From an uncultured Bacilli bacterium (GTDB lineage Bacteria > Bacillota_I > Bacilli_A > RF39 > UBA660), in NCBI GenBank assembly GCA_944358855.1, contig CALVSC010000004.1, positions 1 to 45,932 of the forward strand: a stretch of 45,932 nucleotides of DNA, in the 5' to 3' direction. This document shows, piece after piece, positions 28,014 to 31,295 of this stretch (the first letter of the stretch is position 1; each line of letters starts with the position of its first letter). The notes under the pieces were generated by a model. That model worked only from the letters and a program-made list of their open reading frames with translations. It had not been told where the DNA came from and did not search any database. The translations under genes and the position numbers were made by a program.

Positions 28014-29429
28014 ATGAAAAAAATATTAGTTTTCTTAATTGCAATATTTATTAGTTTTGGTTGTTACATAAATGTAAATGCTAGTACAACCTTTTATGAG
28101 GCAGAATATATTGATGGTATATATATGAAAAAGCAGCAACAAAACTCATCTACCATTTACTATCAAAAAGCCCGATTTTTTAGAGAAAGTGGAACAAATA
28201 GATATGCTTATTGCATTGACCCTTTTGTGTTTTTTAAAGAAGGAAGTAGCTATAATCAAACAATAACCCCAAATAACCTTAGTGCAGAACAAAAACAAAG
28301 AATAGAATTAATTGCTTACTTTGGTTACGGTTATAAAGATCATACAGACCCAAAATGGTATGCTGTAACGCAAATGATGATATGGCAAACCGCAGAACCT
28401 ACAGGTAAATTTTATTTTACATCTGGACTAAATGGTCCTGCAGTCGCACCATATAATACAGAAATCAATATTATTAATGGGTTAATACAAGAATACAATC
28501 GAAACACTTCACTAAAAGATAAAACCTACACAATAATAGAAGGTCAAAATCTTCAAATAACAGACACAAATAATTTATTACACTATTATCAAGTGAATAA
28601 TCCAACATTTAAGATTTCAAACAACACATTAATAGCTAATAATTTAAAAGAAGGAAATTATACAATCACTTTATCTAGAAAAGAAAACAATCACAATATG
28701 CCAATTTTATTTTATCAATCAGAAAATAGTCAAGCTCTAATGCAAACTGGAGATATACCAGAAAAACAAGAAAAACTAAATATAAATGTAATAAGAACAA
28801 AAATAGAAATAACAAAATTAGATGAAGATACTAATTCAACAACACCAAGTGGTGCTGGAAAATTAGCTGGTGCTATATACGGATTATACGATAAAGAAGG
28901 AAAAGAAATTGCTACAGTAACGATAGATGAAAATAACAAAGGACTAATAGAAAACATTCCCTTCGACAAATATTATATTCAAGAAATAAAAGCCCCAACA
29001 GGGTATGAATTAGATACAAACAAATACCCTATAGAAATAACAGAAGAAAAATATCAACACACAATTACATTAAAAGATAAAATCATAAAAAAAGAAATAA
29101 CCATATATAAAACATATGATGAAAATAACAAAATTCCAGAAGCAAACATTTCTTTTTCAGTTTATGATAAAAACAATAAACTAGTTGCTACAATGACTAC
29201 TGACGAAACCGGAAAAGCATCAATTACTTTACCATATGGTGAATATAAAATAGTACAAGATAACACAACGCCTGGTTATCATAAAGTAAATGACTTTTCT
29301 ATAAATGTAATAGACAACATACCAGAAAATATTATTCTAACAGACTACAAAATAAAAGTACCTAATACTAACTCTACCTTTATAACAATAATTATTAATC
29401 TAATTATTAGCTTATTAAATCTATTTTAA
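28014..29429 (+). CDS. Surface adhesin: thioester domain plus two SpaA/CnaB-like domains and degenerate sorting signal
   Basis: A 471-residue secreted surface protein. A signal peptide covers residues 1-24 (cleavage near NAS-TT). Residues 25-230 form a thioester domain: RYAYCIDPF with Cys67 and WYAVTQMMIWQ with Gln120, the pair expected to make an internal Cys-Gln thioester that can bind host or surface amines covalently. Two SpaA/CnaB-like domains follow: 262-355, with ITKLDE (Lys268) and YIQEIKAPTGYELD (Glu324), and 360-445, with IYKTYDE and YKIVQDNTTPGYHK. The C-terminus has VPNTN (449-453), a degenerate LPxTG-like motif, then a hydrophobic run ending ...LLNLF without the usual positively charged tail. 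A sortase ORF overlaps its stop. Confidence 0.85.
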   Translation: MKKILVFLIAIFISFGCYINVNASTTFYEAEYIDGIYMKKQQQNSSTIYYQKARFFRESGTNRYAYCIDPFVFFKEGSSYNQTITPNNLSAEQKQRIELIAYFGYGYKDHTDPKWYAVTQMMIWQTAEPTGKFYFTSGLNGPAVAPYNTEINIINGLIQEYNRNTSLKDKTYTIIEGQNLQITDTNNLLHYYQVNNPTFKISNNTLIANNLKEGNYTITLSRKENNHNMPILFYQSENSQALMQTGDIPEKQEKLNINVIRTKIEITKLDEDTNSTTPSGAGKLAGAIYGLYDKEGKEIATVTIDENNKGLIENIPFDKYYIQEIKAPTGYELDTNKYPIEITEEKYQHTITLKDKIIKKEITIYKTYDENNKIPEANISFSVYDKNNKLVATMTTDETGKASITLPYGEYKIVQDNTTPGYHKVNDFSINVIDNIPENIILTDYKIKVPNTNSTFITIIINLIISLLNLF

Positions 29430-29947
29430 AAAGAATTTTAGGGTTAGTATGCATCTTATTTTTATATTGTTTAGTATGTCATCATATATATGAAAAACAA
29501 ACAGAAGTATCAAAAAAAGAATTATCTACAACACCATCTATTCAATACGAAGAAGATAAAATAGGTACAATAGCAATCAATAAAATTAAACTAAATCAAC
29601 CATTATATCAAATAGACAGTATACATAATAATGTAGAAGAAAATGTAACAATATTAAAAGAATCTATTCTGCCAGAAGAAGAAAACAGTATATTATTTTT
29701 AGCAGCTCATTCAGGAGAAGGAAAAATAGCATATTTTAACAACTTAGATAAATTACAAATTGGAGATAAAATAAAAATTAATTATAATAATAAATTATAT
29801 ATTTATAGAATTGATGATATCTGGGAAGAAGAAAAAACAGGTTACATACACATTAACAAAAGTAGTAACAAACAGCTGGTACTAACAACCTGTAGTCCTC
29901 ATAAAAAAAACAAACAACTAATAATTAATAGTAATTTAATTGCATAA
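29423..29947 (+). CDS. Class D-like sortase ORF with no canonical start codon
   Basis: The ORF is open from 29411 to the TAA at 29945-29947 and contains no ATG, GTG or TTG in frame. From the ATT at 29423 the product is 174 residues: a basic start LKRILGLVCILFLYCLV (signal anchor), a linker, then a sortase barrel with IGTIAINKIKLNQPLY, ILFLAAHSG (His96) and QLVLTTCSPHKK (Cys157). The Arg expected a few residues after the Cys is not evident (KNKQLII). The ATT overlaps the adhesin stop (ATTTTAA), a typical coupled layout if it was once ATG. It may use a rare AUU start, have lost its start, or contain a sequencing error. It probably anchors, or once anchored, the upstream adhesin. Confidence 0.7.
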   Translation: MLKRILGLVCILFLYCLVCHHIYEKQTEVSKKELSTTPSIQYEEDKIGTIAINKIKLNQPLYQIDSIHNNVEENVTILKESILPEEENSILFLAAHSGEGKIAYFNNLDKLQIGDKIKINYNNKLYIYRIDDIWEEEKTGYIHINKSSNKQLVLTTCSPHKKNKQLIINSNLIA

Positions 29948-29948
29948 T

Positions 29949-29976
29949 AAAGATACTAGTTTATACTAGTATCTTT
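29949..29976. terminator. Terminator between the sortase and CtpA-like genes
   Basis: AAAGATACTAG (29949-29959), a six-base loop and CTAGTATCTTT (29966-29976) form an 11-pair stem. On the minus strand it is followed by TTATTATG, on the plus strand by a mixed sequence, so it mainly serves the minus-strand protease gene. Confidence 0.7.
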
Positions 29977-31254
29977 CGTATTTTCTAAAAAATCTAAAGC
30001 TGTTTGTAATTGAAAATCATGCTCATCGTTAGGTGCTGAAAAATATTCACTCGTAAGTAAAACTTCTTTGTCTGGTGAAATACCTTTACCATCAATCCAA
30101 TTTCCCTTCGGAGTAAGCCACTTTTCCGTAGTATACTTCACACTAGTTCCATCAGATAACGTATAAGCAGTTTGTACAGTTCCTTTCCCATAAGTAGTAT
30201 CACCAATCAAGTAAGAATTACTATAAGACTCCTTAAAAGCAGAAGCTAATATTTCAGATGCAGAAGCACTAGCAGAATCGATTAAAACCACTACTGGATA
30301 ATCTCTAGATTCTTTTGTACTATCTTTTATTTTTGTTTTATCTTTTTTAAATTGAACCTGATATAAAACTTCATTCTTTTTCATAAACAACTCTAATATT
30401 TTCTTGGTTTGTTTAACATGTCCACCAGGATTAGAACGAACATCAATGATCAAAGAATGGATATTTTTCTTTTCTAATTTAGCAAGTTCATTTTTAAATT
30501 GTTTATAAGTATTAGCCGCAAAACTATCAATAGAAATATAACCTGTATTACCATTATTTAATGCGTATACTTTAGAAGTAACCGTTACCAAATCAATCTC
30601 TTCTACATGAAGAGTTTTCTCAATTTCTTCGTTATCTCTGCGAATTAAAACTTTTACTTCATCATTAGAACTATTACGAATACTACCCGTAATGTCACTC
30701 ATATTATCAGCAGTAACAACATCACCATTAATTTTAAGCAAAATATCTCCTACCCTTATATCCGCTTTCTCAGCCGGAGAATTTTTAGATACATCTAAAA
30801 TTACAATATTATCATCAACCGCCGAAATAGTAATACCTACACCCGTATAACTACCATCAACAGATTCATTAAAACTCTCTGACTTCTCTTCATCCATGTA
30901 AACAGAATAAGGATCATCTAAAGAAGAAAGCATACCATCAACTGCAGCATCTACTAAGTCCTGCTCTTTTATATCCTTATAATAATTATCTAAAATATGA
31001 TTATAGACAGCAACCAACTCTTGTAACTCTGAAGAAACTTTTTCTCCTTGTATCTCATTCTTAAATAAAGAAAAACTATTACCAATGACAATACCAAATA
31101 TAATAGCCAAAAGAAGTAATACTAAAACCTCAAAAGTATTAAATCCCGTTTTCTTTTCTACAATAATTTCTCTAACTTCATCATCTTTATCTATTTCCTC
31201 ATCAGTTACTATAACTTTACGAAAATTAGGTTTAATAAACGGAAACTTACGCAT
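29956..31254 (-). CDS. CtpA/S41-family carboxy-terminal processing serine protease
   Basis: A 432-residue membrane-anchored protease. It has an N-terminal cytoplasmic tail (1-40), one transmembrane helix (41-64), a PDZ domain (about 135-215, with SYTGVGITI and SPAEKADIRVGDILLKING) and the S41 catalytic domain. The Ser-Lys dyad is in VVVLIDSASASASEIL (Ser near 331) and GDTTYGKGTVQTAY (Lys357). It acts on the outer side of the membrane. Family members cut C-termini of secreted proteins or signalling factors. The start at 31254 has GAGGTG six bases upstream; a GTG six codons earlier sits in the leader before that SD. Confidence 0.93.
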   Translation of the reverse strand: MRKFPFIKPNFRKVIVTDEEIDKDDEVREIIVEKKTGFNTFEVLVLLLLAIIFGIVIGNSFSLFKNEIQGEKVSSELQELVAVYNHILDNYYKDIKEQDLVDAAVDGMLSSLDDPYSVYMDEEKSESFNESVDGSYTGVGITISAVDDNIVILDVSKNSPAEKADIRVGDILLKINGDVVTADNMSDITGSIRNSSNDEVKVLIRRDNEEIEKTLHVEEIDLVTVTSKVYALNNGNTGYISIDSFAANTYKQFKNELAKLEKKNIHSLIIDVRSNPGGHVKQTKKILELFMKKNEVLYQVQFKKDKTKIKDSTKESRDYPVVVLIDSASASASEILASAFKESYSNSYLIGDTTYGKGTVQTAYTLSDGTSVKYTTEKWLTPKGNWIDGKGISPDKEVLLTSEYFSAPNDEHDFQLQTALDFLENTKDTSIN

Positions 31255-31295
31255 ATTATCACCTCGATACACCTATATTCATTTTAACATAAAAA

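Follow-up and report, generated by a model that had tools for sequence, protein, structure and literature searches.

Is a sortase gene whose reading frame holds no start codon still a working gene and, if so, from where would it be translated? The question arises in the window, the whole 45,932-nucleotide stretch of DNA analyzed here, which belongs to a metagenome bin of 1.25 Mb that is 74% complete. The frame occupies positions 29411-29944 of the + strand, between an in-frame TAG (29408-29410) and the terminal TAA (29945-29947). As a reading made from the sequence alone (the sequence-only reading) had noticed, a codon count over its 178 sense codons found no ATG, GTG, or TTG, and the gene is missing from the window's mechanically made list of ORFs. 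Canonical start codons make up 4.6% of the codons of this genome, and a 178-codon gene devoid of them has a chance probability of ~2e-4, that is, ~0.2 expected per genome. Their absence anywhere in the frame is only mildly odd. The true anomaly is the lack of a start at the N-terminus of a conserved protein, not the absence of internal codons.

The product had been described as a full sortase, and this was borne out. It matched the PF04203 profile with 59.9 bits against a curated cut-off of 26.6 (Pfam Sortase, 2.6e-16, residues 54-173). The AlphaFold2 model (mean pLDDT 89.7) showed an N-terminal signal-anchor helix followed by an eight-stranded sortase barrel. Sortases of the PDB matched this model with Z scores of 14-18 over 124-140 residues, the best match being Streptococcus suis SrtC1 (Z 17.8 over 128 residues). 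The catalytic His100 (29708-29710, +) and Cys161 (29891-29893, +), counted from 29411, were invariant in 37 sequences; they are the residues previously numbered His96 and Cys157 from the ATT at 29423. By NCBIfam score, the protein appears akin to classes C and D and a member of neither, as it reached 61 of 160 bits for class C (NF033745) and 53 of 165 and 58 of 140 bits for class D (NF033746 and NF058671), all below cut-off. Like class C/D sortases (PDB 3re9, 4d70), it has the barrel fold with His and Cys, and its gene adjoins that of a SpaA-type substrate with an LPXTG-like motif. Unlike them, it is short, has an anchor only at its N-terminus, and carries Gln at the position of the catalytic Arg.

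The sequence-only reading had also remarked that the usual Arg after the Cys was not evident. As a matter of fact, no catalytic Arg was found on strand beta 8 in the alignment. Gln169 (29915-29917, +) stands at its place, aligned with the Arg of THRLLV and GHRIVM in two other sortases of the same genome, and it was invariant in 37 of 37 aligned orthologs. The Arg is thus missing, but not as a sign of decay, since Gln is invariant across the family; judging from the alignment, Gln169 is a trait of the whole family rather than a lesion of the window copy. The assignment to the sortase fold and family stands despite Gln169, and we lowered the claim of activity: the family would either work without Arg or perform a modified reaction. 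Incidentally, we noticed Gln-for-Arg sortases at 29915-29917 of the window and at loci L002, L023-L037, and L041-L073; a second paralogous group (TTQTIYVA) also has Gln at this position, with Arg retained in the genome's other sortases. A search of the open-access literature found nothing relevant on Gln-type sortases. This matter is separate from the start-codon question.

The gene upstream (28014-29429, +, from ATG 28014 to TAA 29427-29429) encodes an adhesin of 471 aa, with a thioester domain (Pfam TED, 1.5e-11), two SpaA prealbumin-like repeats (SpaA, 9e-25), and a C-terminal sorting signal. Comparison with the adhesin ends of 15 orthologs placed the sorting motif VPNTNST at 29358-29378 (+), followed by a hydrophobic stretch with no basic tail; orthologs have VPNTxTN. 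More generally, the adhesin of the window (28014-29429) and its orthologs share VPNTx[TS][NT] and a hydrophobic tail without the usual terminal positive charges. Directly after the sortase gene, a terminator-like hairpin (29949-29976, +; 12-pair stem and T-rich tail) may end this two-gene unit, a weak indication as one such hairpin was found against 0.6 expected. A CtpB-like S41 protease gene (29956-31272, −) converges on the unit. CtpB acts in the SpoIVFB pathway in Bacillus subtilis, and its position beside the sortase unit is probably a coincidence.

The sortase must start within 29411-29428 (+), between the in-frame TAG and the place where its frame overlaps the stop codon of the adhesin; this stretch reads CTT ATT AAA TCT ATT TTA. 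The most likely initiation codon is the ATT at 29423-29425 (+). It sits 1 nt upstream of the adhesin TAA and would give a 7-nt overlap between the two genes; it corresponds to the ATG of ATGGTAA in the ortholog L010, as window ATT TTA AAA aligns with ATG GTA AAA. Started there, the sortase coding sequence identified by Pfam, AlphaFold2, and the PDB match would span 29423-29947 (+). The alternative is TTA 29426-29428, which directly overlaps the adhesin stop and corresponds to the ATA of the nearest relative, L009 (ACT ATA AAA). The two codons are not distinguishable with certainty, ATT being the more likely.

The window's oddity is shared with close relatives. A search of the genus retrieved a sortase ortholog in 14 of 15 other species, the fifteenth (G008) having a paralog only. 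The sequence-only reading had proposed, as a check, to look in related strains for an ATG at 29423. In substance this check was borne out: 10 of the 14 have ATG at the homologous stop-coupled place, seven as an ATGA overlap and the others as ATGGTAA or nearby. The four others (L009, L014, L015, and L016) have no canonical start. With the window copy (L008), five of 15 orthologs are start-less. The first canonical start codon comes only at codon 136 in L009, 90 in L014, 88 in L015, and 103 in L016, and the coupled codon is ATA in L009, L014, and L015 and GTA, then ATA, in L016. Accordingly, start-less copies overlap the adhesin as ATAA, GTAA, or ATTTTAA, and most ATG-bearing copies as ATGA or ATGNTAA. 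Outside the genus, ~46 family loci were compared, and every one that extends as far as the start has a canonical codon near the N-terminus.

The start-less copies bear the mark of purifying selection. Their frames are intact, and dN/dS values were 0.219/0.973 for L008-L009, 0.190/1.336 for L014-L016, and 0.217/0.789 for L014-L015, resembling those of start-bearing pairs; these are NG86 estimates, YN00 being mostly unusable owing to saturation. Intact frames with dN well below dS indicated that start-less copies are maintained, which argues against silencing. Moreover, the N-terminal residues right after the overlap were equally conserved in start-bearing and start-less copies. Since conservation begins right after the overlap, the start-less copies are likely translated from at or just before it. 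A search over 28 nt found no Shine-Dalgarno sequence in any of the five start-less copies, nor the extended form present in infC and ccpN, and it was likewise absent in nine of the 10 ATG-bearing orthologs, L012 being the only exception. As even most ATG versions have none, those would rely on ribosomes terminating at the adhesin stop; the geometry is unchanged in the start-less copies.

We wondered whether other genes of these bacteria lack a canonical start. The survey covered samples of G003 (~350 kb) plus the window against G006 (400 kb), with overlap filtering, and looked in 167 ortholog pairs for genes whose first canonical codon is preceded by 25 or more conserved residues; AUH genes that happen to have a canonical codon within ~25 residues would escape it. 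Three of the 167 pairs were flagged: two sortases (window and G003) and an SpoIVFB-like M50 protease. In G003, we also came across an SpoIVA-like frame (L090:4912-6108) that opens mid-protein, with 125 codons without a canonical start, directly behind the end of another gene; it looks like an insertion or a misassembly.

The gene for SpoIVFB lies downstream of an M23-domain SpoIVFA-like gene. Its N-terminus, IIK[NT]xxxxxxIHPxFYL, had no plausible canonical start in all 12 genus members that hold the gene; the sole canonical codon of L103 is a GTG, one codon upstream of the motif, and the copy of the window's own genome is L104. In the family, 44 of 80 genomes had no canonical start before the conserved HP motif, and 14 had none before HELGH. 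At one and the same codon, which is ATG in nine distant relatives, these 44 have ATA (40), ATC (three), or ATT (one). Start-less SpoIVFB-like loci were recorded at L094-L105 and L126-L193 (e.g., L074:465-1214:-). A purine-rich, Shine-Dalgarno-like stretch precedes the AUH codon in 37 of 40 cases, partly dictated by the K-D-G of SpoIVFA. The overlapping Tyr codon is TAT in all 40, compared with 92% elsewhere (p ~0.03), a weak sign of selection for AUH beyond this codon. Read-through from an upstream ATG past an in-frame stop (ATGGGAAGTATTTAG) was considered and rejected, as this ATG is absent in L129, L134, L135, and others.

A third case may be infC. In the genus, it reads GGAGGTG-TTA-ATT-ATA, with a strong Shine-Dalgarno before ATT/ATA (L214-L227), and L215 has ACG where others have an upstream ATG, which makes an AUU/AUA start likely. 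We noticed that the apparent ATG/GTG starts of infC fall inside the Shine-Dalgarno. In Staphylococcus aureus, infC starts at AUA (PMC13009471). An intact copy of its product, IF3, was found in 14 of 16 genomes.

The sequence-only reading had offered three readings of the sortase frame: a start-silenced gene, a translation-limited gene with AUU initiation, and a sequencing error. The second fared best, as assemblies of four other species are start-less at the same place with intact frames and dN well below dS; silencing and error both appeared unlikely. That the start was lost and the gene is a young pseudogene might be read from the whole frame being without a canonical start and from the Gln that replaces the catalytic Arg. 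Yet L008 and L009, at 67% identity, have acquired no stop or frameshift and keep dN well below dS, and Gln is found throughout the family, ATG-bearing copies included. Furthermore, the five start-less species fall in at least two parts of the sortase tree, on which this state needs two changes, albeit with weak support, the alternative being one origin followed by reversals. We thus hold the loss of function to be quite improbable. A sequencing or assembly error that removed a normal ATG would suit a window drawn from a single incomplete bin, but four other bins, whose sequences around the site are individual to each, would have had to suffer it too, and SpoIVFB is start-less in 44 genomes; such an error is scarcely credible. 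We grant as little credit to an altered start-codon rule or genetic code across these genomes. At least three gene families on AUH (sortase, SpoIVFB, and infC) would speak for it, whereas in 164 of the 167 pairs surveyed a canonical start stands at the expected place; this leaves room for a modest wider use of AUH, beyond the genes detectable by the survey.

Another possibility was that −1 ribosomal frameshifting joins adhesin and sortase, the latter needing no start of its own. The sortase frame is indeed −1 relative to the adhesin in all genus members, the adhesin ends in a hydrophobic tail without a basic end where the sortase begins with one, and the fusion would be topologically possible (an out-in hairpin with the lysines inside). 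But a search for an X XXY YYZ heptamer found none, neither in the 16-22 nt within which four of the five start-less copies could shift to −1 nor in the longer open window of L016, and RNA structure at the junction was weak (z −0.32). In 10 relatives the overlap holds an ATG, and in L012, L020, L021, and L022 an in-frame stop lies one or two codons upstream of it. These two features together point to separate initiation as the ancestral mode, and we consider frameshifting very unlikely.

We therefore return to initiation at the overlap. Collectively, the comparisons indicate that these bacteria start some proteins at AUU/AUA beside a preceding stop codon and that the sortase gene is not broken; it is probably live and translated from a near-cognate codon by termination-coupled re-initiation. 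Some ribosomes that end the adhesin at TAA 29427-29429 would stay rather than leave and, without a Shine-Dalgarno, start anew in the −1 frame a few nucleotides back, at AUU 29423-29425 or its neighbor UUA, presumably with initiator tRNA at the near-cognate codon. Ancestrally, the two genes would have shared the common ATGA overlap. One G-to-A substitution, turning ATGA into ATAA, would keep the adhesin stop (TGA to TAA) and weaken the sortase start to AUA, and a few sortase molecules per adhesin would be expected. We infer the exact initiation codon, the yield, and any benefit. AUH at the sortase start is by itself weakly informative, because isoleucine codons are 9% of codons and a TAA stop, given how the two frames lie, forces NTA.

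Termination-reinitiation at ATGA overlaps is known (PMC10666635, PMC2268962), with the same 4-nt architecture as the ATG-bearing orthologs and coupling without a Shine-Dalgarno. In Escherichia coli, re-initiation without a Shine-Dalgarno uses initiator tRNA and is IF3-sensitive (PMC2268962). It is known at AUG/GUG/UUG, and ATT overlaps have been suggested as a rare possibility only (PMC10666635). An ATT start gives ~0.3% of ATG in E. coli (Hecht et al., as cited in PMC10666635). IF3 tolerates weak pairs at the third codon position only (PMC10158994), which AUA and AUU would fit. GUA, the homologous codon in L016, fits less well, and the neighboring ATA would serve.

Near-cognate starts as such are already known, usually with extended Shine-Dalgarno sites (PMC13009471, PMC5472188), unlike the sortase here. 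In Firmicutes, infC (AUU/AUA), ccpN (AUA), and cvfC1 (AUU) have conserved AUH starts that lower yield (PMC13009471); they use extended Shine-Dalgarno motifs, whereas the sortase has none and would rely on termination of the upstream gene. The GTC start of sigR in Streptomyces, repressed by IF3 (PMC5472188), resembles the sortase case in that one member of two coupled genes has a near-cognate start, conserved across a genus. Yet sigR is the upstream gene with a very strong Shine-Dalgarno, and the sortase gene is the downstream one, at a stop overlap without a Shine-Dalgarno. What is new, as far as the open-access literature goes, is the stop overlap without a Shine-Dalgarno, and the presence of such starts in sortase and spoIVFB: our search of that literature found neither.

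The sigR-rsrA pair shows that a near-cognate start can set a ratio, with one partner scarce relative to the other (PMC5472188). By analogy with sigR, for which function has been tested (PMC5472188), a low enzyme-to-partner ratio is likely for the sortase. In both coupled pairs, the catalytic member comes second with a weak start, the sortase after its substrate and SpoIVFB after SpoIVFA, which is part of the SpoIVFB inhibition complex in B. subtilis (PMC9042235). It is conceivable, and we propose it tentatively, that nearly every near-cognate codon close by (AUA, AUU, perhaps GUA/UUA) can serve the post-termination ribosomes of this family for re-initiation without a Shine-Dalgarno, and that selection thereby keeps the catalytic partners scarce. 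The adaptive value of the weak sortase start is unproven, because ten sister species do with ATG.

Gene finders accept ATG, GTG, and TTG only, so genes with near-cognate starts are lost or shortened. SpoIVFB, a sporulation protease, would be truncated or mis-annotated in dozens of genomes. If confirmed, the adhesin-sortase pair would be a natural test of how little the identity of the start codon counts for a ribosome that has already reached the site, since the overlap exists with ATG and with ATA in closely related species.
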